A stretch of DNA of 50,694 nucleotides from Mycobacterium sp. UM_CSW (GTDB lineage Bacteria; Actinomycetota; Actinomycetes; Mycobacteriales; Mycobacteriaceae), in assembly GCF_000455205.1 (NCBI RefSeq), contig NZ_AUWQ01000036.1, positions 1-50,694 on the forward strand, in the 5' to 3' direction. Positions within the stretch are counted from its first letter, which is position 1. The number at the start of each line of letters is the position of its first letter. The notes below the pieces were generated by a model, which worked only from the letters and a program-made list of their open reading frames with translations, had not been told where the DNA came from and did no database searches. The translations under genes were made by a program, and so were the position numbers. This document shows positions 2,061 to 42,781 of this stretch, one piece after another.

Positions 2061-3637
2061 CCGACGGCGTGGTCACCACCGCGTTCCGCGCGCTGCTGCG
2101 CTCCCGACTGCTCAGCCCGCCTTCGCCGGTCGCGACGGTGCGGCTCATTCGCGAGGCGCGCCGCGGCGGCACCAATCCCTACACGCTGCTGGCGGTCACG
2201 GCGGCTCGCTGGCCCGACCGCGCCGCGATCATCGACGACTGCGGCGTTCCAGGCGCCCTCACCTACCGCGAGCTGCGCTCGGAAACGGAATCCCTTGCCT
2301 GCAGGTTGTCCGGCGCCGGGGCCGGTCCCGGTCAAGCCGTCGGGCTGATGTGCCGCAACGGGCAGGGCTTCGTCAAGGGCTTCTTCGCCGCCGCGCTGAT
2401 CGGCGCCGACGTCGTGCTCGTCAACACGGACTTCCGCACCGACGCGCTGGCCGCCGCACTGAGTGGCCACAGGATCACGACGATGGTCGCCGACGACGAG
2501 TTCGCGGAACGGGTGCGCGCCGCCGATCAGTCGGTTGCCCTCGTCGACCCGGCGGCGGTCGGTGCACGCGACGAAGGCCGGCGGCCTTCGAGACCCGACG
2601 TGGCCGCGCCCGGCCGGATCATCCTGCTGACGTCCGGTACGACGGGCAGGCCCAAGGGTGTGCCGCGCACACCGCAGCTGCGTTCGGCGGTGGGCGTCTG
2701 GGTGACGATCCTGGATCGCACCGGGTTGCGGACCGGGTCGCGGATCTCGGTGGCGATGCCGATGTTTCACGGGTTGGGGCTCGGCATGCTGATGCTGACC
2801 GTAGCCCTCGGCGGGACGGTCCTGACGAATCGACACTTCGACGCCGAGGCCGCGCTCGCGCAGGCATCGCTGCATCGCGCCGACGCCTTCACCGCGGTGC
2901 CGGTCGTGCTGGCGCGCATCCTGGACCTGCCGGAGCGGGTGCGGGCGCGAAACCCGTTGCCCTACCTGCGTGTGGTGCTGTCCAGTGGGGACCGGCTGGA
3001 TCCCAGCCTCGGGCAGCGGTTCATGGACGCCTACGGCGACATTCTCTACAACGGCTACGGCTCAACGGAAGTCGGCATCGGGGCGCTGGCCACGCCGGCC
3101 GACCTGCGCGAGGCCCCCGAGACGGTCGGAAAACCCGTCGCCGGCTGCCCGGTGCGCATCTTCGACAAGAACGACCGACCCGTCGGCCCGCGCGTCACGG
3201 GCCGCATCTTCGTCGGCGGCGAGCTGGCCAGCGAGGGCTACACCGACGGTGGTGCCAAAGCCGTCGTCGGCACCATGACCAGCACCGGCGACATGGGCTA
3301 CCTCGACAACTCGGGCCGGCTCTACATCGTCGGCCGCGAGGACGACATGATCATCTCCGGCGGCGAGAACGTCTACCCGCGCGCGGTCGAGAACGCGCTC
3401 GCCGAGCACCCCGACATCGCCGACAACGCGGTCATCGGCGTTCCCGACGAACAGTTCGGTCAAAGGCTGGCCGCCTTCGTGGTCCCGCAGCCCGGGCGCA
3501 GCCTCGACCCGGAGGCGCTGCGGGATTACCTGAAGGGCAGGGTTTCCCGCTTCGAGCAGCCGCGCGACATCAACATCGTCGAGAGCATCCCGCGCAACCC
3601 CGCGGGCAAGGTGGTGCGCAAGGAGCTGTCGACCTAG
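2057..3637 (+). CDS. fadD12: fatty-acid/acyl-CoA synthetase, FadD12-like
   Basis: This 526-aa AMP-forming ligase would activate a carboxylic acid to acyl-AMP and then acyl-CoA. The P-loop [12 protein letters not shown], the core motif YGSTEVGIG, the STGDMGYLD block, the hinge GREDDMIISGGENVYP and a C-terminal Lys in NPAGKVVRKEL are all intact. The overall sequence closely resembles what I remember of M. tuberculosis FadD12 (Rv1427c), which is the basis for the symbol. The ATG overlaps the stop of the upstream SDR by four bases. The gene ends seven bases before the convergent ctpI stop. In M. tuberculosis fadD12 is not next to ctpI, so this neighbourhood is rearranged. Confidence 0.88.
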   Translation: MTDGVVTTAFRALLRSRLLSPPSPVATVRLIREARRGGTNPYTLLAVTAARWPDRAAIIDDCGVPGALTYRELRSETESLACRLSGAGAGPGQAVGLMCRNGQGFVKGFFAAALIGADVVLVNTDFRTDALAAALSGHRITTMVADDEFAERVRAADQSVALVDPAAVGARDEGRRPSRPDVAAPGRIILLTSGTTGRPKGVPRTPQLRSAVGVWVTILDRTGLRTGSRISVAMPMFHGLGLGMLMLTVALGGTVLTNRHFDAEAALAQASLHRADAFTAVPVVLARILDLPERVRARNPLPYLRVVLSSGDRLDPSLGQRFMDAYGDILYNGYGSTEVGIGALATPADLREAPETVGKPVAGCPVRIFDKNDRPVGPRVTGRIFVGGELASEGYTDGGAKAVVGTMTSTGDMGYLDNSGRLYIVGREDDMIISGGENVYPRAVENALAEHPDIADNAVIGVPDEQFGQRLAAFVVPQPGRSLDPEALRDYLKGRVSRFEQPRDINIVESIPRNPAGKVVRKELST

Positions 3638-36733: not shown

Positions 36734-37393
36734 CTAATCGCCGGTGCGGCAGCTGATTTCCATGCTGTCGCTTTCCCGGACCAGGAAGTTGAAGCTGACG
36801 TAGCCGTTGTCCGGGTCCCGCACCCGGTCGAGGTAGGGCTGGGTGTCCGCGGCGCTGGCGTTGTCGGCGACGATCAGCGCGCCGGTCGAGAGGCGCGGTT
36901 CGAGTAGCTCGATCACCGGGAGGTAGAGGTCCTTCCACCCGTCGAGCAGGACGAAATCGACCGAACCGTCGAGCTTGTCCAGTGTGGTCAGCGCGTCTCC
37001 CTCGAGAATGGTGATCACGTCGTCGAGGCCGGTCTCGGCGAACGTCTGCTTGGCGGCGGCGATCTTGCTGGCGCTGAGCTCGGTGGTCACCACCCGGCCG
37101 GTGCCGTTGTCGCGCACCGCCGCGGCCAGGTGAACCGCGGAGATTCCGAAGGACATGCCGAACTCGACGACCGTGGCCGGCCGGGTCGCCCGCACCAGCG
37201 CGTAGAGCAGGCGGCCGGATTCCGGTGTCACCGGGATGTAAAACTCGCTCATCGCGTCGGCGCGCTCCTGCGCGCTCATCGGCCGGTCGAAATCGCCGAT
37301 CCTTTCCCGCAACCGCGACATTTGATTTTTCGTTTCGGTGTACATCCGGTCGAGCACCGTCGCGACCTTGGGCGCCTGCAAAGTATTAGCCAT
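36734..37393 (-). CDS. class I SAM-dependent O-methyltransferase-like protein
   Basis: The 219-aa protein shows the caffeoyl-CoA/catechol O-methyltransferase-like fold: motif I VVEFGMSFGISAVHLAAA, the acidic residue in VVTTELSASK, GDALTTLDKL, and the metal-binding-type motif FVLLDGWKDLYLPVIELLEP followed by IVADNASAADT. It should methylate a hydroxyl of a small acceptor with S-adenosylmethionine. It ends four bases from the convergent acyltransferase stop. Its start faces the magnesium-riboswitch promoter, but it is transcribed the other way, so it is not under the riboswitch. The acceptor is unknown. Confidence 0.87.
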   Translation of the reverse strand: MANTLQAPKVATVLDRMYTETKNQMSRLRERIGDFDRPMSAQERADAMSEFYIPVTPESGRLLYALVRATRPATVVEFGMSFGISAVHLAAAVRDNGTGRVVTTELSASKIAAAKQTFAETGLDDVITILEGDALTTLDKLDGSVDFVLLDGWKDLYLPVIELLEPRLSTGALIVADNASAADTQPYLDRVRDPDNGYVSFNFLVRESDSMEISCRTGD

Positions 37394-37456
37394 GGTTTCG
37401 AGCGTAGTCGGGACGGTCGATGGGTCCGTGGGTTAACAGAAACCAACGGGATGGTT

Positions 37457-37497
37457 GCGTCAAGTAATTTGACGCCCATTGGGTCGCGGTGCAAGAT
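37457..37497 (+). promoter_or_regulatory. promoter of the M-box transcript with an inverted repeat over the -35
   Basis: TTGACG (37469-37474), a 17-base spacer and CAAGAT (37492-37497) form a good sigma-A-type promoter whose start site would fall just before the first base pair of the riboswitch at 37508. The -35 is part of a perfect 7-bp inverted repeat, GCGTCAA (37457-37463) and TTGACGC (37469-37475), which suggests a protein operator in addition to RNA control. Confidence 0.65.
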
Positions 37498-37507
37498 GGA
37501 CGGGCAA

Positions 37508-37673
37508 GCACCTCGGTAGGTGAGGCGTCTGCACGGATACAGGCCACTGACCCCGAACGTCGAGAGACGCCCCGGGTCAGGACAGCTCTTCCCGGACCCA
37601 AGGGTTGAGCCCAAGTGGCTTCCGGAACCTTCGGATACGCCGTGCAGTGCCGAAGCTCCGACGAGAGGGGTGC
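37508..37673 (+). promoter_or_regulatory. M-box (ykoK leader) magnesium riboswitch
   Basis: The conserved M-box elements occur in order: TAGGTGAGGC (37517-37526), GGATACAGGCCACTG (37535-37549), GTCGAGAGACGCC (37559-37571) followed by the GGGTCA/CAGG block, GGATACGCC (37633-37641) and GCAGTGCCGAAGCTC (37644-37658). The closing stem P1 pairs GCACCTC (37508-37514) with GGGGTGC (37667-37673). The class folds compactly when several Mg2+ ions bind and then lowers expression of the genes downstream. A terminator hairpin begins at the next base. The regulated genes are the 69-aa protein and the NRAMP-type transporter, which fits Mg2+ homeostasis. Confidence 0.95.
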
Positions 37674-37700
37674 GACCGGTGGTTTTCCGCCGGTCATTTC
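37674..37700 (+). terminator. expression-platform hairpin of the M-box
   Basis: GACCGGTGG (37674-37682), a TTTT loop and CCGCCGGTC (37687-37695) form a nine-pair hairpin with one G-U pair, directly abutting P1 of the riboswitch. The following ATTTCGCCTCTTCC is only mildly U-rich, so termination may be partial or need Rho. Read-through would allow expression of the transporter at low magnesium. Confidence 0.7.
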
Positions 37701-37767
37701 GCCTCTTCCGTTCAGGTGAATGTGACGACACCCGCGTGTGTCCCGGCCGTGAGGAGGTGAGGGCGAG

Positions 37768-37842
37768 ATGAGTCCCGGCGACAGTCCGTATCCCAATTCC
37801 GTCTTGTCCCGATCCGGTTCCGGCATTCTTTTCGCCGCCTGA
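37768..37842 (+). CDS. 24-codon leader peptide between the M-box and the transporter operon
   Basis: ATG at 37768 is preceded by GAGGAGGTGA (37751-37760), the best ribosome binding site in the region. It opens a 24-codon frame: MSPGDSPYPNSVLSRSGSGI followed by LFAA, with a TGA at 37840. Three of the first nine residues are Pro. Proline-bearing leader peptides act with Mg2+ sensing in enterobacterial mgtL, and small ORFs next to the M-box are plausible coupling devices; a similar role here is inference. It lies 73 bases after the terminator hairpin and about 95 bases before the next gene. No protein-level evidence is available. Confidence 0.55.
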   Translation: MSPGDSPYPNSVLSRSGSGILFAA

Positions 37843-37937
37843 TTTGTTCGGGTGCCCTATACCGCTGCGCAGCAAGCGCATTGCGGGCGCCTACGGCCAT
37901 GCCAGGAGCCGATCGGACCTCCCGACAGGAGACGATC

Positions 37938-38147
37938 ATGGCTTTTGTTGTTGCACAACGCCTTACCGGTCCGCAGCGGGGACGCGGCCGGTCGATGCTG
38001 CGAATCGGCCGACTCTTGGTCGGCAAGCTGCACGCGCGCAGCACGCTGACTCCCCAGGAGCGGGCCAACCTCTATGTCTCGCGCATGCCGATCGCGGTCA
38101 TCTCGGCCTCGCTCGGCGGGCATCCGCCGGACAGCAACCGGCGGTGA
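37938..38147 (+). CDS. small basic protein under M-box control (Rv1535-like by context)
   Basis: The 69-aa product starts MAFVVAQRLTGPQRGRGRSM and includes RIGRLLVGKLHARSTLTPQERANLYVSRMPIAVISA, with many Arg/Lys residues and a short hydrophobic patch. ATG at 37938 has AGGAG at a suitable distance. In M. tuberculosis the short gene Rv1535 is one of the genes directly downstream of an M-box, so this could be its counterpart; I infer this from context and have not compared the sequences. It lies 45 bases upstream of the NRAMP-type gene on the same strand and is probably co-transcribed. It might be a small regulator or partner of the transporter. Confidence 0.75.
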   Translation: MAFVVAQRLTGPQRGRGRSMLRIGRLLVGKLHARSTLTPQERANLYVSRMPIAVISASLGGHPPDSNRR

Positions 38148-38192
38148 TTCGCTAGCCCGAGCCCGAACCTGTTCGGAGATAACGAGGATTCG

Positions 38193-39959
38193 ATGACGTC
38201 GATCTCGACCGAGCCCCGCGGCGGCATGAGTACGTCCGGGGCGCCAGGCCAAGCCGTGCTGGATTCGGCGCACGCCGGCGACATCGTCGGCGCGTTCGGC
38301 CGCATCCACCGGGACGCGGCGCACCCAGGCACCGGCGGCCGGTGGCGGCGGCTGCGGACGCTGCTCGTCATCACCGGCCCCGGACTGATCGTGATGGTGG
38401 GCGACAACGATGCCGGCGGCGTCGCGACCTATGCCCAGGCGGGGCAGAACTACGGGATGCGGCTGCTGTGGACGCTGGCGATGCTGATCCCGGTGCTGTA
38501 CGTGAATCAGGAGATGGTGCTGCGGCTGGGCGCGGTCACCCGGGTCGGCCACGCGCGACTGATCTTCGAGCGCTTCGGCAAGTTCTGGGGCGCCTTCAGC
38601 GTCGGTGATCTGCTGATCCTCAACGCGTTGACGATCGTCACCGAATTCATCGGAGTATCACTGGCACTGGGGTTCTTGGGCTGCCCCAAGGCGATCGCGA
38701 TCCCGGCCGCCGCGGTGTTGTTGTTCGCCGTGGTGGCCGGGGGCTCGTTCCGCCGCTGGGAGGGCCTGATGTTCCTGCTGATCGCGGTGAATGTGCTCAT
38801 CATTCCCATGGTGCTGTTGGCGCATCCCACGCTGAAAGGAACCGTGGGCGGGCTGGTGCCGCAATTCCCGGGCGGGCTCAACTCGACCGTGCTGCTGCTC
38901 GTCATCGCGATCGTGGGCACGACGGTCGCGCCGTGGCAGCTGTTCTTTCAGCAGTCCAATGTGGTGGACAAGCGCATCACGACCCGCTGGATCGCTTATG
39001 CCCGAGCCGATCTGATCATCGGGATCGTCGTCGTCATGGTCGGCGCGACGGCCCTGATGGCGGTGACCGCGTTCGGGTTGGCCGGCACCGCCGATTTCGG
39101 CGGCTTCACCGACGCGGGTGCGGTGGCCGCCGGCCTGGCCCGGCACCTCGGCGGGACGGTGGGTGCGCTGTTCGCGATCATCCTGCTGGACGCGTCCTTG
39201 ATCGGCGCCAACGCGATCGGGCTGGCCACCACGTATGCCGTCGGTGACGCGTTGGGCAAGCGGCACTCGCTGCATTGGAAGGTCAGCGAGGCTCCGCTGT
39301 TTTACGGCGGGTACGCCGTGTTGCTGGCGGTGTCCGCCGCGGTCGCGTTCAGCCCGGACCACGTCCTGGGCCTGGTGACCCAGGGCGTGCAGGCCCTCGC
39401 GGGCGTCCTGCTGCCCTCGGCGACGGTGTTCCTGGTCCTGCTCTGCAACGACCGGGCGGTGCTCGGGCCGTGGGTAAACACGGTGCGGCAGAACATCATC
39501 GCGTGGGCCGTCGTGTGGTGTCTGGTGGTCTTGTCGCTCGCGCTGACGGCGACGACCTTCTTCCCGGGCCTGTCCACGGGCACTATCGAGGCCGGTCTCG
39601 CGGTCGGCGCGACGATCGGGATCGTGGGCGGGGCCGTCGCGATCGTCACCGGCCGGCGGCACCGGGACCGGCGGGACGCGGAAGCCGTCGCGGGGACGCT
39701 CGGCGGTGGCCTGGATCCCGAAGAGGTGGACGAACTCGACGACGCGCCGCTCCTTACGCGCGCCGAGCGGCGGGCTGTGCGCCGGCAGGACCGGGCGCAC
39801 TGGCAGACTCCCGACATCGCCATGCTGGACCGGCCGGCCATGTCGCCGATCCGGCGGGCCGGGCTGTTGACCCTGCGGGGCTATCTGGTCGTGGCCGTCG
39901 TGTTTGTGATCATCAAGATCGTGCAGGCCGGCATAATCGGGCCGGCCACGTCGCTGTGA
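38193..39959 (+). CDS. NRAMP-family transporter, probable NRAMP-related Mg2+ transporter (NRMT)
   Basis: The 588-aa membrane protein has the SLC11/NRAMP layout of about eleven helices, with helix 1 starting ITGPGLIVMVGDNDAGG and helix 6 at IVGTTVAPWQLFFQQSNVVDK. The transition-metal motifs are changed: DPGN of helix 1 is DAGG (Asp73 kept, Asn replaced by Gly76) and MPH of helix 6 is APW (Met replaced by Ala246). Loss of the soft Met ligand is a hallmark of NRAMP-related Mg2+ transporters. A hydrophilic segment of about 80 residues precedes the last helix. The N-terminal 50 residues are cytoplasmic. The M-box upstream independently indicates Mg2+. It probably imports Mg2+ (or Mn2+) at low supply. 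Confidence 0.9.
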   Translation: MTSISTEPRGGMSTSGAPGQAVLDSAHAGDIVGAFGRIHRDAAHPGTGGRWRRLRTLLVITGPGLIVMVGDNDAGGVATYAQAGQNYGMRLLWTLAMLIPVLYVNQEMVLRLGAVTRVGHARLIFERFGKFWGAFSVGDLLILNALTIVTEFIGVSLALGFLGCPKAIAIPAAAVLLFAVVAGGSFRRWEGLMFLLIAVNVLIIPMVLLAHPTLKGTVGGLVPQFPGGLNSTVLLLVIAIVGTTVAPWQLFFQQSNVVDKRITTRWIAYARADLIIGIVVVMVGATALMAVTAFGLAGTADFGGFTDAGAVAAGLARHLGGTVGALFAIILLDASLIGANAIGLATTYAVGDALGKRHSLHWKVSEAPLFYGGYAVLLAVSAAVAFSPDHVLGLVTQGVQALAGVLLPSATVFLVLLCNDRAVLGPWVNTVRQNIIAWAVVWCLVVLSLALTATTFFPGLSTGTIEAGLAVGATIGIVGGAVAIVTGRRHRDRRDAEAVAGTLGGGLDPEEVDELDDAPLLTRAERRAVRRQDRAHWQTPDIAMLDRPAMSPIRRAGLLTLRGYLVVAVVFVIIKIVQAGIIGPATSL

Positions 39960-39960
39960 G

Positions 39961-40899
39961 TTAATCGTTGGGCAGCAGCACGATTTTGCCGCGGGTGTGC
40001 CGCTTTTCGAGTTCCTCGAAGGCGTCGGCGACGCGGTCCAGCGGGTAGCTGCTGGCGATCTCGAAATCGATGGTGCCGGTAGCGATCAGGTTGGCCATCT
40101 CGGCGAGCACTTCCGGCGTCGACGCGTCCACACTGCCCTCGGTCTTGGCGCCGACCTGGCCGGCCTTCTGGAACGAAATGATGGTCTCGATCCGATCGGG
40201 CGCGACGCCGAGATCCACGGCGAGCTGGACGTAGTCGGGGCCGAACAGATCGATGAACGCGTCGATCCCGCCGGGCGCCGCCTCTCGCAGCCGGTCGGCC
40301 AAGCCGTCGCCGTACTCGATCGGGGTGACGCCGTGGGCGCGCAGCCAGTCGGCGTTGCCCGGCCCGGCGATACCGAGCACCACCGCCTTGCGCAGGACCA
40401 ACAGCTGCACGACCAGGCTGCCGACCCCTCCCGCCGCCGCCGAAACGGCGACCGTGTCGCCCGGTTTGGGGTCGACGGCGCGAACGGCGGCGTAGGCCGT
40501 CACACCGGCCACGTACAGCGAACCCGCGACCTCCCAACTCAATTCGGGAGGCTTTCGAATCAGTTGACCAACCGGGACGGCGGTATGCGTGGCGTGGCTG
40601 GAGCGGCGGAAGCTGAACCCCAGGACTTCGTCGCCGACGGAAAACGCCGTCACTCCCGGGCCCACGGCGGTCACCACCCCGGCAAGGTCGCTGCCCTCGC
40701 CGGACGGAAAGGTGGCGGGGAACATGTCATGCATCGCACCGCTTCGGATGGCGGCCTCACCGGGATTGATCCCGGCGGCGCGAACCTCGACCACCACCTC
40801 GTCCGGGCCGGGCGACGGCATGTCCACGTCCGCCACGTAGAGGACCTCGCGGTCCCCATAACGGTCGAACCGCACGGCTCGCGCCGTTCCTGCCGTCAT
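39961..40899 (-). CDS. NADP-dependent quinone-oxidoreductase-like protein
   Basis: The 312-aa zinc-free medium-chain dehydrogenase/reductase has VRFDRYGDREVLYVADV at the start, the GEGSDLAGVVTAVGPGV turn and the nucleotide site VSAAAGGVGSLVVQLL. It lacks the structural-zinc cysteines. The family reduces quinones or enones with NADPH. It converges on the transporter gene, with its stop two bases from the transporter TGA, and diverges from the lipoprotein gene with a 120-bp gap. There is no functional link to magnesium evident. Confidence 0.88.
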   Translation of the reverse strand: MTAGTARAVRFDRYGDREVLYVADVDMPSPGPDEVVVEVRAAGINPGEAAIRSGAMHDMFPATFPSGEGSDLAGVVTAVGPGVTAFSVGDEVLGFSFRRSSHATHTAVPVGQLIRKPPELSWEVAGSLYVAGVTAYAAVRAVDPKPGDTVAVSAAAGGVGSLVVQLLVLRKAVVLGIAGPGNADWLRAHGVTPIEYGDGLADRLREAAPGGIDAFIDLFGPDYVQLAVDLGVAPDRIETIISFQKAGQVGAKTEGSVDASTPEVLAEMANLIATGTIDFEIASSYPLDRVADAFEELEKRHTRGKIVLLPND

Positions 40900-41861: not shown

Positions 41862-42617
41862 TCAGGCCACGACCTGGACGGGATCGCCGACGCTCACCTG
41901 GTTGAAATACCACGCCGCATTGTCCGGGCTCAGATTGATGCATCCGTGACTGACGTTGGCGTGGCCCTGCGAGTCAACCGACCACGGGGCCGAGTGCACG
42001 TACACGCCGCTGTTGGTGATCCGCACCGCGTACGAAGCGATGATGTCGTATCCCTCGGGCGAACTCAGCGGGATGCCGATGGTCCGCGAGTCCATCCGCA
42101 CGGTGCGGTCCTTCTCCAGGGCGGTGAAGCTGCCGATCGGCGTGGGACGGGAGGGCTTGCCCATCGACGCCGGCATCGTCCGAAGCACCTCTCCGTTTCG
42201 GCTGACGGTGAATGTGTGCTCGGAGATGCTGGCAACACCGAGGAGCGCATCACCGGTTTCAAAGCCCGTCGTCAGGGCCTGCACACCCACCGAGACGTGG
42301 GTGTGGGCGGGCCAGTACTGATTCGGAACCCACTGCACGACGTTATTTTCGACCCACTCGAAATGCCCCGGCATGCCGCTCGGCGATGTGACACGAATCG
42401 ACCGTTCGGCCGCGGCGCGATCGGCGACGGGTGCGGTGAACTTCACCACGACCGGGTGCGCCACGCCCACCACCGCGCCGTCGGCCGGCGCAACCGACGC
42501 GACTACGGGCACGGGATCGGGCACCGGGACCGCGGCCACGCTGCGGGCGCCGCTCCCCAACACGCCAATGGCCGTGCACGCCACCATAACGAATAGATAA
42601 CGAACCGCTCGACGCAT
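41862..42617 (-). CDS. ldtA: L,D-transpeptidase LdtA (LdtMt1-like)
   Basis: The 251-aa protein has an N-terminal membrane/signal segment ([15 protein letters not shown]), an immunoglobulin-like domain ([20 protein letters not shown]) and a YkuD catalytic domain ending with [10 protein letters not shown]...[13 protein letters not shown]. The nucleophile is Cys226, the same number as in M. tuberculosis LdtMt1 (Rv0116c), and the length is identical. It makes 3-3 crosslinks in peptidoglycan and is a target of carbapenems. The ATG at 42617 has AAAGGG eight bases upstream; a GTG at 42653 is rejected. Its TGA abuts the carboxylic acid reductase relic. Confidence 0.95.
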
Positions 42618-42781
42618 GGCGCCCACCCTTTGCGATTGTGCAGTAAACACCACGATATTCTACTGGCTGTCTACCCATTACGGTTTTCAGCAAACAATTC
42701 CAGCTTCGCCCACTCGTCACAACAGCGAGCGGATCACCGGTTGGGTCCGATCCCGTCACGGGGGGCAGGTGAGGAGCGGGC

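Follow-up and report, generated by a model that had tools for sequence, protein, structure and literature searches.

An M-box riboswitch, a leader open reading frame and a predicted NRAMP-related Mg2+ transporter in a probable mycobacterial Mg2+ uptake operon

Pairs of an M-box riboswitch and a gene for an NRAMP-related Mg2+ transporter (NRMT or NrmT) were described by Shin 2014, mostly from Clostridia and Deltaproteobacteria, and the NrmT of Clostridium acetobutylicum, whose gene follows an M-box as in the locus presented here, is reported there to import Mg2+ (PMC4072509). We analysed such a pair in Mycobacterium sp. UM_CSW, on contig NZ_AUWQ01000036.1 of assembly GCF_000455205.1; the window is the whole stretch of 50,694 nucleotides (nt) that was analysed, and the part under study begins at 37457, 48 nt 5' of the aptamer, and ends at 39959. 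Two further descriptions come from mycobacteria. In M. avium, Ignatov 2013 places a ykoK leader before MAV_5197, labelled a 'manganese/iron transporter' (PMC3774663); as in the window, a mycobacterial metal-transporter gene is joined to an M-box, which there lies in a mapped 5' untranslated region, and we liken that gene to ours by its description. In M. tuberculosis, the leaders of pe20 and rv1535 are described as combining, as the window does, an aptamer, a first Shine-Dalgarno sequence (SD1), a pyrimidine-rich anti-SD, a second SD (SD2) and an upstream open reading frame (uORF2) with proline at residue 7, whereas the downstream gene in the window is a predicted NRMT; the same work, D'Halluin 2026, names a mycobacterial 'Mn2+-type' M-box class and states that it was not seen in M. 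tuberculosis (PMC12810186). We take the window locus for a member of this class, the match being made on its text description.

A predicted Mg2+ transporter behind an M-box

The two features on which the comparison turns are these:

37505..37676, plus strand: M-box (ykoK) Mg2+ riboswitch aptamer, RF00380 (Rfam, 148 bits, E 9.6e-34)
38193..39959, plus strand: predicted NRAMP-related Mg2+ transporter (NRMT/NrmT), 588 amino acids (aa), from its similarity to EleNRMT and its motifs NDAGG and GTTVAPW

We consider it highly likely that both belong to an uptake operon for Mg2+ starvation, made up of a promoter, the M-box, one or more leader open reading frames (ORFs), a 69-aa protein and the NRAMP-related Mg2+ importer. 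The M-box reported in the preliminary description of this DNA is indeed present: RF00380 is matched over its full length (model 1-169), with a score far above the gathering score of 44 and with zero non-standard pairs flagged in the alignment, and it is the only Rfam match above gathering score across the window. A second Rfam family is absent from the leader, where the two further hits with E values up to 5 fell far below their gathering scores.

The product of 38193-39959 belongs to the NRAMP family (Pfam Nramp PF01566, E 5.2e-68). Among solved structures it matches EleNRMT at 188.1 bits and the runner-up, an MntH, at 59 bits; the 438-aa chain of EleNRMT (PDB 7QIA) aligns to transporter residues 53-452, and unlike EleNRMT the window protein extends further at both ends. 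The MntH encoded in the same genome (contig C40), used as a control, scores 335 bits to the MntH structure and 43 to EleNRMT. In transmembrane helix 1 (TM1) the window transporter reads NDAGG (residue 72) and the same-genome MntH VDPGN, and in TM6 the two read GTTVAPW (TTVAPW at residue 243) and GATVMPH, respectively. The ion site of NRMTs is given as DxxG on helix 1 together with TxxA/T on helix 6 (eLife 2022, PMC8806188), and the window transporter carries this signature, whereas the classical MntH/NRAMP site, DxxN plus A/CxxM, is lost from it, with Asn changed to Gly and Met to Ala. EleNRMT is described with the same DxxG and TxxA and with the same replacement of the TM6 histidine by tryptophan (PMC8806188). 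By score and by binding-site signature the window transporter is very probably a Mg2+ importer of the NRMT clade; this supports the identity proposed in the preliminary description, and the change of DPGN to DAGG and of MPH to APW on which that proposal leaned is borne out against the same-genome MntH.

The signature extends to the relatives of this protein. Among the named loci, which are the best 80 of 585 from a search with the transporter, GTT[VI]APW is present in 79, and the helix-1 site is DAGG (DxxG) in 63 and DAGA in 16, with L061 outside the count. The 16 loci with DAGA (DxxA), which keep APW, are more distant NRMT relatives (L051, L056, L057, L063-L065, L067, L068, L073, L075, L076, L078, L079, L083, L084 and L086).

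The linkage between M-box and NRMT is conserved. By Rfam, a same-strand M-box lies 5' of the transporter in 47 of the 80 named loci, namely in 38 of the 39 from Mycobacterium, Mycolicibacterium and Nocardia and in 9 of the other 41; the lone exception among the 39 (L009) lies on a contig that offers just 573 nt upstream. Of 148 genus genomes sampled evenly from a larger group, an M-box is present in 76 and a close transporter ortholog in 45 (identity at least 67%, score at least 789 bits; some matches carry a marked internal stop codon), and a same-strand M-box stands upstream of all 45. In 29 of these the M-box was located through a cross-table of 150 listed genus M-box places (149 fetched plus the window, a lower bound, as more exist); it precedes the match start by 334-653 nt and in one case by 1289 nt. 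In the other 16 it was identified by running Rfam on the sequence upstream. Three other genomes (L137, L182, L183) have an M-box, then an ORF of 432-435 aa that is MgtE-like by reading, then an NRMT.

The leader and its open reading frames

Three ORFs that are absent from the preliminary description separate the aptamer from the transporter (37679-37771, 37768-37842 and 37938-38147). Together with the sequence ahead of the aptamer, the leader reads as follows:

37469..37497, plus strand: promoter-like element, TTGACG (37469-37474), 17 nt, CAAGAT (37492-37497), from sequence reading
37660..37670, plus strand: SD1-like stretch GACGAGAGGGG in the 3' strand of P1, candidate anti-anti-SD, its role assigned by homology to pe20
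37679..37771, plus strand: possible uORF1, GTG start, 30 aa, its stop overlapping the uORF2 start (ATGA)
37694..37709, plus strand: pyrimidine-rich candidate anti-SD TCATTTCGCCTCTTCC, complementary by eye to the SD2/start region
37727..37742, plus strand: small hairpin GACAC-N6-GTGTC just 5' of SD2, from the pair counts of alignment A1
37751..37763, plus strand: SD2 GAGGAGGTGAGGG, a strong SD of uORF2, near-invariant in alignment A1
37768..37842, plus strand: uORF2, 24 aa, MSPGDSPYPNSVLSRSGSGILFAA, with proline at residue 7, a leader ORF of the Rv1805A type by place and description
37938..38147, plus strand: small protein gene, 69 aa, with conserved core LTPQERANLYVSRMPIAVISASLGGH, from its divergence pattern and genus distribution

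All the parts of a pe20-type leader (SD1, anti-SD, SD2, and uORF2 with proline 7) are found in the window, and we propose that they work in the same way. When Mg2+ is ample, the aptamer would close P1 and hold SD1 within it, the pyrimidine-rich stretch would be free to cover SD2, uORF2 would go untranslated and Rho would halt transcription ahead of the importer. Under Mg2+ scarcity, P1 would open, SD1 would pair with the anti-SD and uORF2 would be translated, RNA polymerase would proceed, and the small protein and the importer would be made. The aptamer, the NRMT signature and the conserved linkage can be read from the DNA itself; the first and last steps of this scheme rest on the aptamer and transporter families, and those in between on homology to the M. 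tuberculosis pe20 leader. We found no intrinsic terminator-like site at 37380-38300 (shuffles average 0.6), which is in keeping with Rho. The C. acetobutylicum NrmT M-box differs here, in that its described mechanism forms an intrinsic terminator, and the window has in addition a leader ORF, a candidate anti-SD and a 69-aa ORF in between (PMC4072509). The computed accessibility of SD2 averaged 0.396 with the 3' strand of P1 free and 0.283 with it sequestered (150 of 191 leaders), which lends modest backing to the anti-SD pairing.

Several of these elements recur outside the window. The promoter-like element stops 7 nt short of the aptamer, and TTGAC stands ahead of the aptamer in all 39 Mycobacterium, Mycolicibacterium and Nocardia leaders (window counted), 36 of them also matching a loose -35/-10 pattern; a strict sigma-70 promoter scan reported none. 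The hairpin ahead of SD2 is paired in 98.2% of A1 cells, and one of its five pairs is changed on both sides. The possible uORF1, in the form it takes in the window, was seen for the window and L008 only, and the uORF1 of pe20 is described as likewise poorly conserved (PMC12810186).

The most widespread element is uORF2. An SD-led ORF with the core xS[P/S/...], 80-107 nt past the aptamer (median 91), is found at 136 of the 150 listed genus M-box places, whatever gene comes next; the strict pattern is lacking at 14 of the 150, and random positions gave 20 of 1218. Residue 7 is proline in 111 of the 136 copies. MgtL-type leader peptides are characterised by early prolines and acidic residues, which make their translation inefficient at low Mg2+; the window has P3, D5, P7 and P9, and D5 is missing from a number of mycobacterial copies and from those fetched from Actinomycetia other than Mycobacterium and Nocardia. 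The peptide was called mycobacteria-specific by D'Halluin 2026 (PMC12810186), but it is not: all 9 fetched Nocardia loci with an M-box carry uORF2 (M[KSP][SP]GDSPYP...), and Streptacidiphilus, Kutzneria, Kitasatospora and two Streptomyces loci have less strict versions in which SP comes early. A clear uORF2 was not shown in a third Streptomyces locus (L040), in the actinobacterial L054 or in Alicyclobacillus L082. In a class-wide sample of 197 genomes under strict filters, just four outside the genus had an M-box, and their leaders gave MSPGHSP, MSSGGSPQP and MSSGSSPQP, each behind a strong SD, and MPEGNSQQP, a weak resemblance. Another, hydrophobic ORF of about 60 aa (MTITI.. / MSITITIP..) lies past the M-box in non-mycobacterial Actinomycetia, at about 222 nt in L270 and L271 and about 243 nt in L054.

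Over 24 loci, synonymous (pS) and nonsynonymous (pN) divergence came to 0.472 and 0.130 for the transporter gene and to 0.220 and 0.184 for uORF2, whose synonymous sites diverge half as much as those of the transporter gene, with a pS under all 80 sampled 24-codon transporter windows (minimum 0.38). At rv1535-type loci (n=53) the pS of uORF2 is likewise 0.278, against 0.466 for the next ORF. All 136 mycobacterial copies of uORF2 encode the core serine with AGT, a codon that the transporter genes seldom use (31 of 580 serines, 25 loci). Since pS is low and the core serine is always AGT, the nucleotides of uORF2 are constrained; RNA structure, an open initiation region and slow codons are candidate causes, the first of which is favoured by the A1 pair counts but not by the SD2-occupancy control described below. 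In the columns of P3 G4 D5 S6 silent sites are the more variable ones (pS 0.30, pN 0.06), so that the beginning of the peptide is probably under constraint as well.

Three candidate RNA features of uORF2 were set aside. RNAalifold and the A1 pair counts favour a fold-back of the uORF2 body over SD2 (helix 5, 97.3% of cells paired), and for the whole A1 structure the observed value was unreached by any of 500 shuffles on five measures. SD2 occupancy is, however, lower with real than with shuffled bodies (0.677 against 0.732 for NRMT-type, 0.591 against 0.695 for rv1535-type and 0.609 against 0.702 for pe20-type leaders), and because this control contradicts the pair counts we do not claim the fold-back. 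A single RNA motif read in differing frames in the 3' part of uORF2 was rejected; of 65 NRMT-like loci, 62 have the motif in frame 0 and 3 gave no match to it, as did 7 of 9 Nocardia loci. Pairing of UAUCCG in uORF2 with GGAUA of the aptamer was dropped, as the window reads UAUCCC.

In the core of the 69-aa ORF (LTPQER..SLGGH), which 14 loci preserve intact, pS is 0.379 and pN 0.056, clearly the pattern of a coding sequence; across its full length the ORF is less tightly conserved (pS 0.457, pN 0.317; 24 loci). Its family occurs in 70 of the 148 genus genomes. The protein has no match in Pfam or NCBIfam, and its AlphaFold model is poor (mean pLDDT 57, pTM 0.23). One locus (L129, G050 C1) has two copies of the family behind a single M-box.

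What the M-box serves

Several points weigh against the operon as we propose it. The function of the transporter and the Mg2+ response of the leader are both ones that we infer, and EleNRMT is reported to carry Mn2+ besides Mg2+ (PMC8806188). The transporter starts 517 nt past the aptamer, a distance over which control by the leader need not extend, and the authors of the pe20 study leave open whether Rho requires the translation step (PMC12810186). In the accessibility computation shuffled linkers show a difference in the same direction, though a smaller one (0.406 against 0.375, 47 of 60 loci), and the same-genome pe20-type leader (L171) runs opposite (0.098 against 0.198). M-box, leader ORF and small ORF are moreover kept in three genomes in which the transporter ortholog is absent (L149, L131, L156), so that the switch does not serve the transporter alone; in L149 and L156 the small ORF is followed by a relative of window 39961-40899, and in L131 a relative of window 41862-42653 is the first tested neighbour found. 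The preliminary description had the M-box controlling the transporter. The pairing of the two stands, while direct control does not fare as well: because the ORF conserved beside the switch is the 24-aa leader ORF, control of the transporter is probably indirect, and by homology with the pe20 leader the switch probably acts on uORF2 translation plus Rho.

The labels published for the M. avium gene and for the 'Mn2+-type' class (PMC3774663, PMC12810186) would agree with a transporter that is an Mn2+/Fe2+ NRAMP, behind an M-box that responds to Mn2+ or ties Mn2+ uptake to the Mg2+ state. The Mn2+ transport reported for EleNRMT (PMC8806188) would fit, as would the association of the rv1535 M-box with other divalent ions that is cited in PMC12810186. 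We nevertheless regard this as very unlikely, with binding-site residues and a top structure match that are those of an NRMT, with a canonical MntH (DPGN, MPH) elsewhere in the same genome, and with the same question resolved in Shin 2014 to Mg2+ transport and sensing (PMC4072509). It also seems unlikely that the M-box chiefly serves uORF2 and the 69-aa protein, with the transporter as an occasional passenger of the operon, even if the small-ORF family is found in more genomes than the close transporter ortholog (70 against 45), persists behind M-box and leader ORF in the three genomes named above, and shares its switch with a leader ORF that follows 136 of the 150 M-box places. None of the 45 close orthologs stands without an M-box. 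Relatives of the small ORF also precede mgtE-like ORFs (L137, L182) and, behind an M-box and leader ORF, a P-type ATPase-like long ORF (L174, G119 C8), all by reading of translations, which again points to ion uptake.

Beyond the Mg2+ uptake operon itself, we entertain, as a tentative and rather doubtful possibility, that in Actinomycetia the M-box is no more than the first of two parts of an Mg2+ regulator, the second being the leader ORF about 90 nt downstream, possibly with dual sensing of the mgtL kind. The nucleotides as well as the peptide of the leader ORF would then be selected, and Mg2+ would be read again through translation of its D/P-rich start. If true, dual Mg2+ sensing would stand ahead of many different Mg2+ genes. 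To our knowledge, the mgtA leader is not an M-box of the RF00380 family. The mgtA leader of Salmonella and E. coli, with mgtL, would share with the window an Mg2+ response, a short ORF with proline/acidic codons and Rho, whereas efficient translation of mgtL is described as repressing (PMC11552253) and translation of uORF2 would permit expression.

Mycobacterial M-box classes and Mg2+ uptake

Three M-boxes were found in the source assembly (G000). Besides that of the window, one on contig C23 is followed by a 77-aa ORF and then by an ORF that is isoleucyl-tRNA synthetase-like by reading of its translation, an arrangement likened by its gene order to that described for rv1535; the other, on C86, lies before a PPE-like ORF (again by reading). 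The three agree with the rv1535, pe20 and 'Mn2+' classes distinguished by D'Halluin 2026. A search of the genome with Pfam Nramp gave four matches. A second NRMT (C28) lies behind an MgtE-like gene (Pfam MgtE_N, CBS), with no M-box detected by Rfam in the 1,973 nt upstream, and a third NRAMP relative (L007, on C10) has the intermediate signature TDAGS plus IMPW and scores 186 bits to EleNRMT and 55 to MntH. Elsewhere M-boxes may be clustered: Streptacidiphilus fuscans (L049, L081) has a divergent pair about 200 nt apart, at 3034-3212 (minus strand) and 3417-3596 (plus strand), one member of which precedes an NRMT; one mycobacterium (G060 C1) has a divergent pair 0.4 kb apart, at 4224750-4224920 (minus) and 4225343-4225513 (plus); and another (G071 C11) has three M-boxes in about 7 kb (96031-103079).

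The preliminary description saw in this arrangement a physiological role for the mycobacterial M-box. Such a role is supported, but its novelty is less than was implied, pieces of it being present in Shin 2014, Ignatov 2013 and D'Halluin 2026. In a limited literature search we found no paper naming these mycobacterial genes NRMTs; a search on magnesium riboswitch, upstream open reading frame and Streptomyces returned nothing, which carries little weight. What is added here is the reassignment of these genes to Mg2+, a broader distribution of the leader ORF and an indication that its nucleotides are constrained. In our reading the 'Mn2+-type' M-box class would drive Mg2+ importers, and our results suggest that the manganese-transporter labels published for these genes are wrong; the class would gain a coherent function, Mg2+ uptake. 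That Nocardia and some other Actinomycetia also have the leader ORF speaks against its function being limited to mycobacteria or to PE/PPE proteins. As a simple Mg2+ operon, the locus would also lend itself to studying, through a laboratory host, the leader ORF that was recently found in M. tuberculosis.

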